From Bdellovibrio sp. NC01 (GTDB taxonomy: Bacteria > Bdellovibrionota > Bdellovibrionia > Bdellovibrionales > Bdellovibrionaceae), in contig NZ_CP030034.1 in NCBI RefSeq assembly GCF_006874625.1, positions 2,976,001 through 3,040,000 on the forward strand: 64,000 nt of DNA. Direction: 5' to 3'. Shown in pieces: positions 31,883 to 64,000 of this stretch (position 1 is the stretch's first letter; each line of letters begins with the position of its first letter). The position numbers and the translations under genes were made by a program. Under the pieces are notes generated by a model. That model had not been told where the DNA came from, did not search any database, and saw only the letters and a list, made by a program, of their open reading frames with translations.

Positions 31883-32635
31883 ATGGCTAAAGAGTGGGTT
31901 TTGATCAGAGGAATTATGAGTGAGGCTTATCACTGGTGGGATTTTCTTCCCCAGATGCAAGCCCATTTTCCCGAAGACACTTTCCACACAGCCGACATTA
32001 TGGGAAATGGAAAACTCTGCGCGCATACGACATCACTGAGTATTCCTAAAAATATCGCGGTTCTTCGCGAACAAGTTCCGGCAACCTCAACGAAGAAAAT
32101 TCTTTTCGGTTTTTCTTTGGGTGGCATGCTTGCTTTGGAATGGGCCCATCGTCACCCTGAAGAAGTCGAAGCGGTTGTGCTTTTGAACGTGAGCTTAAAC
32201 AACTCCCCATTCTATAAACGTCTTCGCCCGAGTTCTTTCGCACAAATTTTTAAATCAGCGTTCATCAAAGATTTAACTGCACGCGAATCGATGATTGTGC
32301 GTATGACGACCTCAAACATGGCTGATGAGCGTGTTTTGGAAATCGCCCAAAACTTTGGCCCACGCGGTGTCGAATACCCGGTAAAACCGATGAATTTCTT
32401 ATGGCAAATCGGGATTGCCTCGCAGATTCCACAGCGTCAGGCACCGCCAGCTCCGGTGTTGGTATTAAATTCTGCTCTTGATAAAGTGGTCCATCCTGAT
32501 TGTTCAAAAAAAATCGCTGAAGGTTGGAACTTGCCTTTGATCGTTCACCCTCACGCTGGTCATGATTTAACTTTGGAAGATCCGCAATGGGTTTTGGAAA
32601 AAGTCAGCCACTTCGTAAATGCAAGGAATGTATAG
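31883..32635 (+). CDS. Alpha/beta hydrolase
   Basis: 250 residues, no signal peptide. Nucleophile elbow GFSLGGMLALEW, acid in NSALDKVVHP and His in HPHAGHDLTLEDP complete a Ser-Asp-His triad. The N-terminus VLIRGIMSEAYHWWDF shows an unusual oxyanion motif with RG in place of HG. Cytosolic carboxylesterase or thioesterase-like; substrate unknown. The PAP2-like gene starts 1 nt after its stop codon, so the two are coupled and may both act in lipid turnover. Confidence 0.83.
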   Translation: MAKEWVLIRGIMSEAYHWWDFLPQMQAHFPEDTFHTADIMGNGKLCAHTTSLSIPKNIAVLREQVPATSTKKILFGFSLGGMLALEWAHRHPEEVEAVVLLNVSLNNSPFYKRLRPSSFAQIFKSAFIKDLTARESMIVRMTTSNMADERVLEIAQNFGPRGVEYPVKPMNFLWQIGIASQIPQRQAPPAPVLVLNSALDKVVHPDCSKKIAEGWNLPLIVHPHAGHDLTLEDPQWVLEKVSHFVNARNV

Positions 32636-33272: not shown

Positions 33273-34043
33273 TTATTTCAGCGGCAACAAACAGCGCCCA
33301 TAAGCTTGGATCACGATCGGCGCTTCACCCTTCGCTAAACTGATCTTATCAAGATTGCGAATTTTAGCTGCTAACCAGCGGCTTTCCACTCGGGTTTCGA
33401 AATATTCGAAGCCCACGATTTCTTTTTTATCGACCGTGCGGTAAACCAACACATTCGTCATAAAGATCTTTTCGCGCTTGGATGTTTTATCCAAAGCCGC
33501 TGTACCGCCCTTTTGATATTTCGCCATTTGCTCGTCCATGTATTGGCCGGCAAACTTATCGCTTTGTTCGATTTGGCTTTCGATGATTTCTGTGACAGAA
33601 ACTTTGCGACCATCACTTAAAGTCACAGTTCTAATTCCTGGCGCAAGGTTCGCACTGACATTGTAATTGGCGACGACTTTGCCGAAGCCATAGTGAATGC
33701 GTTTTGCAATCTCTGCCGCATTCATCGAGTCGTCTTTGCTATTATCGTAGCCGACGCATGTATTGAAAAAAGCATTTTTGGAAGACGTCTTAAGCTTGGT
33801 TTCAAAAGACATCACGGGTGGCATCACGGGGCCATAAGTGTCTGCCAAGATCTGTATAGTTTTCGAGTTATCGTAGACCACACCTTCAGGCAGAGCGTAT
33901 TTTTTAGAAGTGCCATCATAAGGATAGGCCGCTTTCAATAGAGCATAGGATTCATCGAAGAATTGTCGCTCGCTTTCGTTCAAAGAAACGGCATGAGAAA
34001 AAGCACCATATAATAGACAAAGTCCAAGAACCAAGAATTTCAC
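33273..34043 (-). CDS. Exported protein of unknown function
   Basis: 256 residues from a GTG with AAGGAG 6 nt upstream. Signal peptide cut near SHA (residue 18). The body mixes helices and strands and contains two Cys far apart (TCVGY, GRCLLPLK) that could pair. A segment KRIHYGFGKVVANYNV and TVTLSDGRKVSVTEII suggest a periplasmic binding or structural role. No family recognised. Confidence 0.7.
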   Translation of the reverse strand: MKFLVLGLCLLYGAFSHAVSLNESERQFFDESYALLKAAYPYDGTSKKYALPEGVVYDNSKTIQILADTYGPVMPPVMSFETKLKTSSKNAFFNTCVGYDNSKDDSMNAAEIAKRIHYGFGKVVANYNVSANLAPGIRTVTLSDGRKVSVTEIIESQIEQSDKFAGQYMDEQMAKYQKGGTAALDKTSKREKIFMTNVLVYRTVDKKEIVGFEYFETRVESRWLAAKIRNLDKISLAKGEAPIVIQAYGRCLLPLK

Positions 34044-34217
34044 GGAAGACTCCTTATAATAGGCTTACCTCTTTTCGGCTTTCTCACATCTAGACTGAAC
34101 GCCGTGAATGTTTAGTAATGTAGCCGGCGGTCTCATTCTGAGATTGCTCTAAAATACCGAGTGCTAATTAGTCAGTGCGAGCGAAAGAATGTCACCGGTC
34201 CCATCGTGAAACAATCT

Positions 34218-34285
34218 CAGTGCCAAGGGCCGTTCTGAAAACGATTAAAACGAAGTCCTAACGGTTCTTCGTGGCACTGCCCTTG
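34218..34285 (+). promoter_or_regulatory. Structured leader with mutually exclusive helices before the 1334-residue gene
   Basis: CAGTGCC (34218-34224) is complementary to GGCACTG (34273-34279), and the adjoining CAAGGGC (34224-34230) to GCCCTTG (34279-34285). The order A-B-A'-B' allows either a pseudoknot or two exclusive helices. Inner pairs CCGTT/AACGG (34230-34234 with 34260-34264) and CGAAG/CTTCG (34251-34255 with 34267-34271) add to it. It lies about 40 nt before the start codon. Confidence 0.4.
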
Positions 34286-34325
34286 CCTTTATTCAAGTTG
34301 ATACATTTTTTTATTTGGAGGATCC

Positions 34326-37300
34326 ATGAAACGTCCGTCTGCTTATATCAGATTGTTTTCTGCGGGAGTTCTAGCAAGTGCTCTATTAGTAAGTGCAGTG
34401 CCACAACAAGCACGCGCCCTAAACTTGCCTTGGAAGAACGCACAAGCAGCAACTCAATCTCAACAAGTACAAACAATCGTGCTTGCAGTCGATGGTTTCA
34501 GCTACTTCGCATTCCAAGAAGCTCAACGCCAAGGTATGTTTAAGGAATTCACGAGCGCTGGCGCCCACGTAGCTCCATTCCCATCAATGACGGACTTATC
34601 ATGGTCAACGATCACTCATACAGCAGAGCTTTTCGGAGCTGCCGGCCGTATCAAATCGGTTGAAGCAACATACTTTGATGAATCAAGCCAATCTGTACAA
34701 GGTGACCCACGCGATTATTATCGCCGCTTGGCTTTCCCGAAATATTACATGGGTGCGTTTGACGCTTTCTTCAATCCTTACGTTGAAGCCTTGATGTACT
34801 TCCCAACTGAAGAAGTTCCAAAATTAGAAGTGAAATCAGTTGTTGATGACTTAATCGCTGCAAAACCTAAAAAATTCCTGACTGGTTACGTGGGTGCGGT
34901 GGACTCGACAGCACATACACAAATCAACCGTCTTTACCCAGTTATCAAAACTCTTGATGCTGAAGTAAAACGCTTGATCAAATCATACAAAGAAAAAGGC
35001 CAAGACGTAGAGATCGTATTGGTATCTGACCACGGTAACATCGGTCGCTTCCAAGAAGGCAAAAAAGAACAAGAACTTGCAGGCGTTGACGTACAAAAAA
35101 TCGTACAACGCGCAGGTTTGAACCCAGTTCAACAACTTAAAGATAACAAAGACGTCGCAATGCCACTACTTGCATTGGGTTCTTGGGCGCCAGTTTATTT
35201 GAAAGACAGAAAGAACATGCCGAACTTGATCAACGAGTTTGCAAAAGAAACTTGGTTCGATATGGCTGTTTATGTAAACCGCAACAACTCATCAGAAACT
35301 TTGATGACTGTTATTACATCTGACGGTGAAGCAAAAGTTCAATTCGATAAAAAGACAAACTTGTACTACTACTTCCCGACTAAAGGAAATCCACTTCGCA
35401 TTGGAACAGCTCAACAGTCCACACAAGCTAAACCAGTGGCGATGAATGCAACACAAGCATTCGAAGCTTCGCAAAACACTCCGTATCCAGATGCGATCTA
35501 CCGTATCGTAGAATCTGCTTCTGAAAGAAACTTCGACTTCCCAGACTTCATCTTAACTATCAAAGACGGTCACTACATTGAAAACTCTTTGGGTGCTTTC
35601 GCAAAAATGTACCGCACACACGGTTCATTGACGGCATCTTCATCATACGGCTTGTTGGCTTCAACAAAACGTAAAGTTCCAGGTCAAATCCGTTCAAAAG
35701 ATATCATGTCATTTATCGGTGTAGATCCTAAAGATCTGTTCGCGGATTCTTTGAGCAAACATAAAGACACAGGTCGCGCAGCCCTTGATAAAGTTCTTGC
35801 GAACCAACGACAAGGTATCGAAACTGATGCAAAAGACCTTAGCCAAAAACGCATCTTCCGTCATATCTCGAAGTTCGTAGCTGATACTCGTCCTTACTTC
35901 CTCGTATCAGAAATGAAGAGCTTCATGGAAGCTTTTAAATTCGATCCATTCAAAGATCCATCAGGTCAAAGACTTTCACCAATGAGCTTTGACGTATCAA
36001 AATTCGATGTGACGACAATGATCTCTCCAGAAGACATTGGTTCAGTGACAGACGCAGTTTTGACTTCAGGTTCTGTAGAGAACCTAATGAAAGATCCACG
36101 CATCAACAAAGTAAAAGAAAAAGTGGGCATGCTTCAAGACACGAAGACAGCCGCTTTGGATATGCAACACGTTGACCTTAAAACAGGTGGCGGCATGCTT
36201 GACCAAGTGAAAGAGTACCTTCTTCCTGCAAAACGCGCAGTGATGAAAATGTACCAAATGCCATACCTTCTTGAAAATTCAATCGTAGTTCAGGAAAAAC
36301 CATTCTTGCCTGAAACTCGCGATCTGAACTTCGCAAGACAATGGGTCACACAAAAAGAAGTTTCGGCTCAGTCATTCAAAGCATTGACGCAAGCTCCGAA
36401 AGGTCAATTGTCACAAGTACAAAACCTTTTGAAAGAAGCAATCAAAGAAGCTGATTTGGAAGGTCGTATCTATCCGACTCCATTGACGAAAATCTATAAC
36501 CAAAAATTGGAAGACGTAACGATCGTTTACGTACCAGGTATTTACAACAGCATCTTCGATAAAGAGATCTTCAGCCTTGGTCTTGCTGCTTTGTCAGACG
36601 AAATGGGTCTTCGCGTAATCCAACCGCCAGTAGAAGCAACTTGTTCTTCTGACATCAACGGTGACGTGATCTTGGATTATATCCGTAAAGACTTCAAAGA
36701 CAGACAAGCTCGTGGTCACGCAGCTCCACGCTATGTGTTCTTGAGCTACTCTAAAGGTGCAGTTGATACACTTTACGCATTCACGAAGAGCCCAAGCTTT
36801 GTATCAACATACGTAAAAGGTATGATTGCAGTAGCCGCTCCACTTCACGGTTCAAGCATCTTGAATACGACAGATCTTCCGTTCCAATTGGTATCAGCAT
36901 TGTCTGAAAACCAAGGTCCAGAGATTTGCCAAACTGAAAAGACAGCAGCGAAATCTATCACGCCAACTGCGATGGATGCTTTCTGGAGAAAAAATGAAAG
37001 AGGTTTAACGGGTTTGACTCGTTACTTCTCTGTGACTTTCGAAAGCTCTCCTGAAGATTCACACATCTTCATGAAGGCGACAAAATTGATCGGTCAATTC
37101 GATGAAGACAACGACGGTGTTGTGACAGTATCTTCTTCGAAATTCCCGGCAGGCTTGAAAGCTGTTGATATGGGTACGATCCACGCCGATCACTTGGCAG
37201 GTATCTTGTCTTCACGCTTCAACCAAAAAGCATTCATGAAAGGTCTTGTAAGCTCTTTGTCAGAGTTGAACATCAACGACGACAAAAACAACTTTAACTG

Positions 37301-38330
37301 GAATACGCAAGTGATCTTGGGTGCAGCGAATGCTCACTACATTAAGAACAAAACGTATTACCGTATGAAAAAGCCAGGCATCATTGAACAAATCGGTATG
37401 GAACAAGATCACTTGGTAGAAATGATCCCTTACGGCAACTCTTTTGAATTGAATCGTCAGGTTCTTCCGAAAGTGAACGATCCAGCGGACAGTTATGAAG
37501 TAAAAACGAAATTGCCACAATCAGGCCTTCGTTATGATCCATACAATGTTCTTGATGTATCGAAATTGGGTGACGTAATGGCTGGTACAAAAGTGACTCC
37601 GGCGTCTCGTCAAAATATGCCAGAAGGTATCCGCATCGATTACAACCACGCGAACATGGTGCACTTCCGTATGGATCACCAGTTCAACTATGAATCTCGT
37701 TCACCAGGTGGACTTGATGACAACAAAGACTTCGGTTACATCACGTCAGAATTCAATGGCGAGAAAAACTGGGCTTTGATGAGAAGTAACAACAACTCGA
37801 TCCGTATGACGACAATGGCTTACAGATTCTCTCCACTTGATTTCCCGAAAATGGATTTGAAGTTGGCAGTCACTAAAGACGTTGTGGGTGCAGATCCAGT
37901 TAAAGGTAAAACGGGTAAAGACGACTCTGCTTTCCAAGTGTGGTTCACGATCCGTGACGGTCGTGCGAATGGCGACAGAGCGACTTTGGATGCAAAAGCT
38001 GATAAAGTGTTCTTGTTCGGTTACTACTACGGTGGTGCAGTTCCTGGTGAAAACCGCAAAGCAGGCGACATCTTTGAAAACTGGTACTCGAACAAAAACG
38101 TTGTGGTTGCGACTCTTCCGTACGCAAAACAACTTTTGTTGAACAACCCAGATGCTTTGGGCAAAGCACAAGTTTACTCGCGCAACTTGGCGGAAGACTT
38201 GAAACGTGCATTCCCAGAGAAAAACATCGCAGACCTGGACATCGTTGCGATCACGATCCAACACGACTCGAACGATACAGCTTCTTCATCTGAAGCGTAC
38301 TTCAAAGGCTTGGATTTCACTGCCCAATAA
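34326..38330 (+). CDS. Giant exported hydrolase: alkaline-phosphatase-superfamily, alpha/beta-hydrolase and DUF3047-like regions
   Basis: 1334 residues, signal peptide cut near ARA (residue 31). Residues about 48-450 match the alkaline-phosphatase superfamily of nucleotide pyrophosphatase/phosphodiesterase type: AVDGFSYF (Asp56), FPSMTDLSW (Thr89 as likely nucleophile), GAVDSTAH (Asp193, His197), VSDHGN (Asp235, His236) and MYRTHGS (His). Residues about 725-960 form an alpha/beta hydrolase: IVYVPGIYN, FLSYSKGAVD with the nucleophile Ser, AAPLHGS, and DHLAG late. Residues about 1125-1334 recall DUF3047 (VFLFGYYYGG, ITIQHDSNDTASSSEAYF). GGAGG precedes the ATG. Codon choice is very uniform, as in highly expressed genes. 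It probably degrades phosphodiesters and esters outside the cytosol. Confidence 0.78.
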   Translation: MKRPSAYIRLFSAGVLASALLVSAVPQQARALNLPWKNAQAATQSQQVQTIVLAVDGFSYFAFQEAQRQGMFKEFTSAGAHVAPFPSMTDLSWSTITHTAELFGAAGRIKSVEATYFDESSQSVQGDPRDYYRRLAFPKYYMGAFDAFFNPYVEALMYFPTEEVPKLEVKSVVDDLIAAKPKKFLTGYVGAVDSTAHTQINRLYPVIKTLDAEVKRLIKSYKEKGQDVEIVLVSDHGNIGRFQEGKKEQELAGVDVQKIVQRAGLNPVQQLKDNKDVAMPLLALGSWAPVYLKDRKNMPNLINEFAKETWFDMAVYVNRNNSSETLMTVITSDGEAKVQFDKKTNLYYYFPTKGNPLRIGTAQQSTQAKPVAMNATQAFEASQNTPYPDAIYRIVESASERNFDFPDFILTIKDGHYIENSLGAFAKMYRTHGSLTASSSYGLLASTKRKVPGQIRSKDIMSFIGVDPKDLFADSLSKHKDTGRAALDKVLANQRQGIETDAKDLSQKRIFRHISKFVADTRPYFLVSEMKSFMEAFKFDPFKDPSGQRLSPMSFDVSKFDVTTMISPEDIGSVTDAVLTSGSVENLMKDPRINKVKEKVGMLQDTKTAALDMQHVDLKTGGGMLDQVKEYLLPAKRAVMKMYQMPYLLENSIVVQEKPFLPETRDLNFARQWVTQKEVSAQSFKALTQAPKGQLSQVQNLLKEAIKEADLEGRIYPTPLTKIYNQKLEDVTIVYVPGIYNSIFDKEIFSLGLAALSDEMGLRVIQPPVEATCSSDINGDVILDYIRKDFKDRQARGHAAPRYVFLSYSKGAVDTLYAFTKSPSFVSTYVKGMIAVAAPLHGSSILNTTDLPFQLVSALSENQGPEICQTEKTAAKSITPTAMDAFWRKNERGLTGLTRYFSVTFESSPEDSHIFMKATKLIGQFDEDNDGVVTVSSSKFPAGLKAVDMGTIHADHLAGILSSRFNQKAFMKGLVSSLSELNINDDKNNFNWNTQVILGAANAHYIKNKTYYRMKKPGIIEQIGMEQDHLVEMIPYGNSFELNRQVLPKVNDPADSYEVKTKLPQSGLRYDPYNVLDVSKLGDVMAGTKVTPASRQNMPEGIRIDYNHANMVHFRMDHQFNYESRSPGGLDDNKDFGYITSEFNGEKNWALMRSNNNSIRMTTMAYRFSPLDFPKMDLKLAVTKDVVGADPVKGKTGKDDSAFQVWFTIRDGRANGDRATLDAKADKVFLFGYYYGGAVPGENRKAGDIFENWYSNKNVVVATLPYAKQLLLNNPDALGKAQVYSRNLAEDLKRAFPEKNIADLDIVAITIQHDSNDTASSSEAYFKGLDFTAQ

Positions 38331-48288: not shown

Positions 48289-48595
48289 AACCACCTCCCG
48301 TTCTAAATTAGAACGCGTTTATCATTCTAACATTTTGAGCGAATGGGAAAACTCTGAACGACACTCTGTCGTAAACTGTGGAAATAACGAAGCTATTCGG
48401 TCTCAATTCCACGCGTTTTATATTCGAGTAGCGTAGAAACAACACTTTGCTATAAAGGACCCAACAAAAATCAGATCCCAAATATTCAAAATTAGACACT
48501 CCCACCCAGGGCCCACGCTCGCCAATGACGCGCCGATTTAGTTGACCGGGAATAGATTGGTTCCTAAGATCAGCGCTTTAACAGGAGAAAAGGCA
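48289..48595. other. Intergenic region between divergent lipoprotein and dioxygenase-like genes
   Basis: 307 bp holding both promoters. Short frames across it have no coding character. I see no clear dyad or RNA gene. AGGAGA at about 48583 is the ribosome-binding site of the gene at 48596. Confidence 0.45.
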
Positions 48596-49366
48596 ATGAC
48601 TAAAAAGCCATTCATGAACTTCACGATCGATCATACGACGATGTTGTTTCACCCTAATCTTTACCGTCTTTCTTACGTAGTTTTCCGTATTATCTTCGGC
48701 ACAACTCCAGACGATTTGTTGTACGAAAAAAAGCGTAAAGGTCAAAACGGCGAAAAAGACGTTTCGATGACATATGCGACTCGCGTGGGCACATGGGAAC
48801 CAAAAGAGCGCGATCCACTTCCAACGATTTTCGCAATCGTTCAACCTTCTGAACCTGCAAATCAACCTTCACACGTTCGTGAAATGTTGGATGGTCACAG
48901 CAATGTGGCGCACGTTCAGCATTTGGCTTTGCGTACTCCAGACTTGCTTGGTTTCTACGAACACTGCCTAGAGCGCGGTGTGCAATTCGTGACTCCGATC
49001 TTGAAAGACGATCACGAAAATTTGATTCAAGTTTTCTCTGGTGAGTGGTTCTTGCCGGGCGGAAAATCTTCTGGCTTCTTCTTCGAGTTCTTGCAACGCG
49101 ATCCAAGCGATAAAGAACTAGAAATTATCCAAAAGGCTAACAAACAAACTTGGTTCCGTGATGAAACATTCTTGGGTCTTTACGCTGAAAAAGAGCGTGA
49201 ATATCAATCAGGCAAAGTTCGTTCATTCTTGTCTGAAGAGTTGTTCAACGCGATCATCGCAAAATTGGGCGACAAACAAGTTTACGAAATCACTGAAGAC
49301 GATTTGGCAGCGATCGAAAAACTAATGATCGAAACAACTGCAAAAGCGAAAGCAGCAAAAGCTTAG
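48596..49366 (+). CDS. One-module 4-hydroxyphenylpyruvate-dioxygenase-like protein (VOC superfamily)
   Basis: 256 residues from the ATG at 48596 with AGGAGA upstream. The first 170 residues match the catalytic C-terminal half of HPPD: TIDHTTM (His13), HVQHLALRT (His109), LIQVFSGEW and FFFEFLQRD (Glu164), which together supply the 2-His-1-Glu iron site. Normal HPPD has about 350 residues in two modules; the first module is absent. A helical tail of about 85 residues follows, ending in Lys/Ala. Ring hydroxylation of a keto acid is possible, but the substrate is uncertain. No tyrosine-degradation gene lies nearby. Confidence 0.8.
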   Translation: MTKKPFMNFTIDHTTMLFHPNLYRLSYVVFRIIFGTTPDDLLYEKKRKGQNGEKDVSMTYATRVGTWEPKERDPLPTIFAIVQPSEPANQPSHVREMLDGHSNVAHVQHLALRTPDLLGFYEHCLERGVQFVTPILKDDHENLIQVFSGEWFLPGGKSSGFFFEFLQRDPSDKELEIIQKANKQTWFRDETFLGLYAEKEREYQSGKVRSFLSEELFNAIIAKLGDKQVYEITEDDLAAIEKLMIETTAKAKAAKA

Positions 49367-63537: not shown

Positions 63538-64000
63538 TTATACGTACGAGCCGCGTTTGATTTTTTCCAAGATCAACTTTTCTGTCTTGATAGGGTCCTT
63601 TGGATCTACCGAGAAGAATGATTGCTGCTCACAACGAATCTTTTCTTTGATCAACCAGCGAAGGATGTCCGCCAAGTTTTTATTCTTCTTATCCAAGAAG
63701 AATGGATCGTTTTCCAAAGCGTCTTTTGCTTTTTTCAAAGCACGTGCTTCAGCCGGATCAGATTCTTTCACTTTGTAGTGAGGCAGATCGTATTTTTTCA
63801 CGTCTTCAGGCAATACACCCAAGAATTTTACATTCGGTGCAGAGAAGTCAGCGTTACGGATCAAAGATGCCGCAGAGCCTGCTTTCAATGTACGGAAGAT
63901 ATTTTGCATCGTGTACGCATCGAGATCTCCGAAGAAGTACATTGGAACATCTAGTTCTTCTTGGATCAGCTTCGCCCAACCACGAACACCATTCGATGGA
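63538..64000 (-). CDS. Topoisomerase VI subunit A (Spo11-like), C-terminal part
   Basis: The minus-strand frame is open to the right edge, so the start and the catalytic Tyr domain are outside. The 153 visible residues match the Toprim half of topoisomerase VI A subunits: VRGWAKLIQEELDVPMYFFGDLDAY carries the DxD metal pair, then IRNADFSAPNVKFLGVLPEDVKKYDLP, and KEKIRCEQQSFFS near the end (family KAEQEAL). Topo VI is a type IIB enzyme with an ATPase B subunit, expected to lie just beyond the window. It occurs in archaea and plants, and in some bacteria. Similarity is judged by eye. Confidence 0.75.
   Translation of the reverse strand, partial: PSNGVRGWAKLIQEELDVPMYFFGDLDAYTMQNIFRTLKAGSAASLIRNADFSAPNVKFLGVLPEDVKKYDLPHYKVKESDPAEARALKKAKDALENDPFFLDKKNKNLADILRWLIKEKIRCEQQSFFSVDPKDPIKTEKLILEKIKRGSYV

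Follow-up and report, generated by a model that had tools for sequence, protein, structure and literature searches.

How Bdellovibrio dismantles the membranes of its prey while the bdelloplast persists is poorly known. A single exported protein that combines an acyl-ester site with a phosphodiester site would be a concrete candidate for phospholipid breakdown, and the locus described here may encode such a protein. It lies within a 64,000-nucleotide stretch (the window) of the complete, 3.98 Mb genome of Bdellovibrio sp. NC01, and the question that it raises is what the encoded enzyme cuts, and where. The original prediction, which had been made from the sequence without database searches, held that a single secreted chain joins a phosphodiesterase-type domain to an alpha/beta hydrolase and a DUF3047-like end, and that it could act on prey.

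Results

A three-domain exported protein encoded by one open frame

The 1334-residue reading frame was borne out as one open frame on the plus strand (Table 1). The signal-peptide-like start, with possible cleavage after ARA, has similar counterparts in most orthologues. An NCBIfam search returned nothing above cut-off, and a Pfam search of linker residues 480-715 returned no family.

Table 1. Positions, in the window, of the three-domain hydrolase gene, its predicted domains, its upstream elements and two neighbouring genes.
Feature	Position	Strand	Basis
250-aa alpha/beta hydrolase	31883..32635	+	PF00561, E 7.8e-13; travels with the PAP2-like gene
PAP2/AtPDCT1_2-like membrane enzyme, 217 aa	32619..33272	+	PF24788, E 2.5e-14, over cut-off
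Second, weaker palindrome (minus strand TCTCAGAATGAGACC)	34129..34143		One mismatch; chance alone would give several such matches
Upstream inverted-repeat site TGTCACCGGTCCCATCGTGAAACA, candidate activator site	34190..34213	+	Conserved TGTCNC..TCYC..TGARAC
Sigma-54-type -24/-12 promoter TGGCACTGCCCTTGC	34272..34286	+	Near-consensus TGGCAC-N5-TTGC
Three-domain exported hydrolase, 1334 aa	34326..38330	+	Single open frame, ATG 34326 to stop 38330
Signal-peptide-like N-terminus, residues 1-31	34326..34418	+	Read from sequence: basic n-region, hydrophobic core, A-x-A
Type I phosphodiesterase/NPP-like domain, residues 46-470	34461..35735	+	PF01663 over cut-off; ENPP6-like model
Mostly helical linker, residues 471-715	35736..36470	+	Predicted model, partly low confidence
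Alpha/beta hydrolase domain, residues 716-1000 (S809, D930, H956)	36471..37325	+	MGS0156 profile match and model
C-terminal beta domain, residues 1045-1334	37458..38327	+	DUF3047-like over 1160-1327

The first domain has a predicted NPP fold and a complete two-metal site

The phosphodiesterase-type character proposed for the first domain was recovered in two ways. Pfam family Phosphodiest (PF01663) matched residues 174-237 with an E-value of 2.3e-7 and 31.2 bits (cut-off 23), and a profile aligned the domain locally with ENPP6 and ENPP1 around the SDHG motif. In addition, an AlphaFold2 model of residues 46-715 (alignment of 25 window and locus sequences, mean pLDDT 74.9, pTM 0.71) superimposed on ENPP6 (5egh) with Z 22.3 and an rmsd of 3.8 over 300 aligned residues, with ENPP7, autotaxin and phosphonoacetate hydrolase ranking just behind. 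ENPP6, ENPP7 and autotaxin act on choline lipids or lysolipids.

The two-metal site is present in the expected order as D56, T89, D193, H197, D235, H236 and H432 (in RTHG). The first six of these had been listed correctly in the original prediction, which missed the last ligand, His432. Conservation was scored on an alignment of 22 full-length proteins that includes three very distant ones (G215, G196 and G353), and in this set D56, D193, H197, D235, H236 and H432 are invariant (22/22), while position 89 is T or S.

Other assignments were discarded. A sulfatase of the formylglycine type was rejected on its nucleophile region, FPSMTDLSW, which lacks the Cys/Ser of C-x-P-x-R, and BREX PglZ reached 13.4 bits against a cut-off of 25 in Pfam and 10.5 against 140 in NCBIfam. 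A de novo helical-repeat protein, the first match of the profile search that also gave ENPP6 and ENPP1, was set aside as a repeat artefact.

The NPP fold is shared with enzymes of other specificity, since nucleotide pyrophosphatases and phosphonoacetate hydrolases match the model at similar Z. This bears on one competing explanation, namely that the protein combines two separate digestive activities, with the NPP domain cutting nucleotide or nucleic-acid phosphodiesters and the second domain cutting esters or polyesters in general. The NPP-fold nucleotide enzymes Xac NPP, ENPP1 and ENPP5 score nearly as high as the best matches, and MGS0156, the closest relative found for the second domain, degrades several polyesters (PMC11236915). 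Against it, no nucleotide-specific feature was identified, and the neighbouring genes (see below) suggest lipids or phosphate; we regard this explanation as unlikely.

The second domain resembles lipase-like esterases

A Pfam scan of the alpha/beta hydrolase region gave no family above threshold. A profile of the same region run against the PDB found MGS0156 (5d8m) with an E-value of 4e-7 and BlEst2 with 0.03, and a model of residues 690-1334 (AlphaFold2, alignment of 19 window and locus sequences, mean pLDDT 72.3, pTM 0.54) matched MGS0156 with Z 20.3 and an rmsd of 2.8 over 229 aligned residues; it also matched many family I.5 lipases. Confidence within this model falls below pLDDT 50 in parts, the loops near Asp930 and His956 included. 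The alpha/beta hydrolase proposed beforehand is thus upheld by profile and model alike.

Its predicted triad, Ser809-Asp930-His956, aligns with 5d8m and is invariant in 22/22 full-length proteins. The serine in SYSKGAVD that had been proposed as the nucleophile is indeed Ser809; the late histidine had been left unplaced and the acid, Asp930, had not been given. The triad of MGS0156 is Ser232-Asp350-His373 (PMC11236915), so that its spacings of 118 and 23 compare with 121 and 26 here, as counted on the profile alignment. MGS0156 has been shown to act as a lipase on olive oil (PMC5341072). A stand-alone relative of this domain, 405 aa long and with no obvious signal peptide, was noted in family f12 (L125, 5389-6606, minus strand).

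From the fold matches and the order of residues in the sequence we infer the geometry of both active sites. Given the folds and two complete sites, it is very likely that the protein has two enzymatic activities, and the proposal of an exported chain with two different, complete hydrolase sites is supported as a prediction from the signal-peptide-like start and the conserved residues.

The C-terminal domain is DUF3047-like

Residues 1160-1327 matched DUF3047 (PF11249) by hmmscan with an E-value of 6.7e-5 and 22.9 bits, below the cut-off of 27, while a whole-genome search gave 27 bits, marked as over cut-off. The family was matched by 18/19 orthologues at E-values up to 0.1 (best 6e-6), and the distant relative in G353 reached 29.1 bits, over cut-off. 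These results agree with the DUF3047-like end that had been anticipated.

The domain carries the acidic motifs GxDDN, KDDSAFQ and HDSND, the Asp positions of which are invariant (22/22). Such clusters, together with the GH11 and GH12 jelly rolls that appear among the Foldseek rows for the C-terminal half, could be taken to mean that the targets are phosphoester and ester groups attached to glycans or lipid A in the prey envelope, and that the C-terminal domain directs the enzyme to them by binding sugars or even takes part in catalysis. The jelly-roll rows are low, however, with TMt at most 0.45 for a query that was the C-terminal half, and a PDB sequence search with the C-terminal domain gave no convincing relative, so that we hold this explanation to be very improbable. 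It is also improbable, if slightly less so, that the DUF3047-like domain has a catalytic site of its own, formed by its invariant Asp/Asn/His motifs, which would put three hydrolases in one secreted chain; if true, several components of the prey envelope could be dismantled at once by a single protein.

Codon use points to strong expression in this species

The codon adaptation index (CAI) of the hydrolase gene was 0.667, close to the 0.685 of the genome's own ribosomal proteins, and it ranked second of 52 window ORFs (mean 0.457, s.d. 0.071). The comparison drew on the window ORFs and a single ribosomal operon; when a cleaner ribosomal set was used, the value became 0.647. The codon use of a highly expressed gene, as originally described, is hereby confirmed. 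On the same weights, which were not tuned to the orthologues' own genomes, the orthologues ranged from 0.29 to 0.60, and strong expression is therefore suggested for this species only. Two further window ORFs, at 48542-49366 (0.690) and 63538-63942 (0.665), also have codon use near that of the ribosomal proteins.

The hydrolase is widespread but patchy

Full-length relatives were found in 20+ genomes. They occur in the majority of Bdellovibrio species, in five further genera of the family and in three remote lineages of the phylum (G215, G196 and G353), and the proteins of these three are set far apart on long branches in the tree. Seven Bdellovibrio species gave no match to the three-domain hydrolase, so predation does not depend on it throughout the genus. 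Taken with the separate single-domain relatives, the distant full-length proteins and the seven absences indicate that the fusion either dates far back or has been transferred within the phylum, and that it is patchy and dispensable for some species. An apparent gene remnant with NPP and DUF3047-like pieces and several stops was seen at G127:C14:80434-81098.

Gene neighbourhoods suggest lipids or phosphate

The gene was found in two settings. In 12 genomes, the window included, it lies beside the 250-aa hydrolase and the PAP2-like gene, with varying gene order and orientation. In a scan of 37 genomes for both genes, the PAP2-like gene occurred in 11/20 genomes with the three-domain hydrolase and in 0/17 without it, always adjacent (Fisher p 2e-4, not corrected for the relatedness of the genomes). 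In the window, a 256-aa exported-looking protein with no Pfam family is encoded between the PAP2-like gene and the hydrolase (33273-34043, minus strand), and no match to it was seen at the equivalent place in the other genomes compared.

In HD100-type genomes, the three-domain gene instead has ppk-sixA on one side and ppx-(porin-like)-phoU-phoB-phoR on the other. This second setting is what favours an explanation by phosphate scavenging in the predator's own periplasm or at its surface, run with the Pho system, where the NPP domain would free phosphate from phosphodiesters and the esterase would clear acyl chains. Several observations count against it: in most other genomes, the window included, the gene is away from the pho genes; the best Pho-box scores upstream of it were unremarkable against the window background; it has a sigma-54-type promoter with its own conserved upstream site; and the HD100 orthologue was detected in prey remains (PMC11003981; see below). 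We consider phosphate scavenging unlikely, a little more so than two separate digestive activities.

A sigma-54-type promoter and a conserved upstream site

The promoter element is the single match in the window, with 0.44 expected by chance, and its TGGCA and TTGCCT columns are invariant in 14/14 aligned upstream regions. Together with the upstream site it accompanies the gene in both neighbourhood settings, and rpoN is present in the genome. The hydrolase gene is thus a predicted target of sigma-54 control.

A large shared regulon was considered and rejected, as a genome-wide search for the upstream site and promoter together gave a single occurrence, against 0 for the reversed-pattern control. 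The bare palindrome GTCTCNNNNTGAGACA outnumbers its reversed control roughly twofold across the genome (416 versus 221 at up to two mismatches), and the other copies examined were not consistently followed by a sigma-54 promoter. Several GTCTCNNNNTGAGACA copies lie upstream of exported-protein genes, for example in loci L065-L070.

The HD100 orthologue is listed on the prey side

Locus-tag anchors and synteny place the HD100 orthologue, with 72% identity to the window protein, at Bd1012. Before phoB, loci L030 and L031 have the order hydrolase gene, transposase-like ORF, ppx, porin-like gene and phoU, and since phoB is Bd1017 (PMC3818213), counting back five genes from it in L031 gives Bd1012. 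This placement is consistent with the anchors Bd1002 soxR (PMC3818213) and Bd1007, a YcgR-like protein (PMC11323537).

A published secretome study assigns Bd1012 to the 'wider AB-hydrolase family' and counts it as one of the predator proteins detected in empty bdelloplasts, which were produced by a mutant that kills prey without entering (PMC11003981). Its authors caution that few peptides were obtained and that breakage of some predator cells had caused contamination (PMC11003981). The delivery to prey that had been proposed thus gains support through its putative HD100 orthologue. The listing, as far as the available part goes, names the AB-hydrolase alone, with the NPP and DUF3047-like parts unmentioned (PMC11003981), and the present analysis would add a second predicted activity to this protein.

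Discussion

We favour an exported bifunctional lipid hydrolase that breaks down phospholipids in the prey envelope, and we give this a probability of about 0.48. A phospholipid is preferred because, of the possible substrates, it most readily links the ENPP6/7-like phosphodiesterase and the lipase-like esterase with the PDCT/PAP2-like neighbour; the full mechanism is kept at slightly below even odds because the NPP fold is common to nucleotide enzymes. The activity, the phospholipid substrate, the order of cuts and what the third domain does are inferred as follows. The predator would release the enzyme into the prey envelope, where the alpha/beta hydrolase domain would cut acyl esters by means of Ser809-Asp930-His956, and the NPP-type domain, with two metal ions and Thr89, would cleave the phosphodiester bond, either at the head group or, once the acyl chains are gone, in the glycerophosphodiester. 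Between them, the two domains would break prey phospholipid down into fatty acid, head group and phosphate. The DUF3047-like beta domain probably serves in binding to the surface of the substrate. The protein is in this respect also a starting point for giving DUF3047 a function.

The protein is a new combination of domains, the component enzyme kinds of which are already known. With ENPP6 and the NPP branch of the alkaline phosphatase superfamily it has in common PF01663, the fold and all seven metal-site positions in order; it differs in its fusion to lipase-like and DUF3047-like domains, and the identity is ~15%. With MGS0156, lipase family I.5 and BlEst2 it shares the fold, a Ser-Asp-His triad of similar spacing and local sequence similarity, but unlike in MGS0156 the hydrolase is here the middle domain of a longer chain with an NPP domain ahead of it. 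The DUF3047 domain here ends a large enzyme, and by hmmscan the window protein stays under the cut-off of that family. Single parts of the fusion resemble stand-alone proteins, namely NPP-like proteins of 414-473 aa from the same order, which keep the metal-site positions, and hydrolases of ~400 aa in many family f12 genomes.
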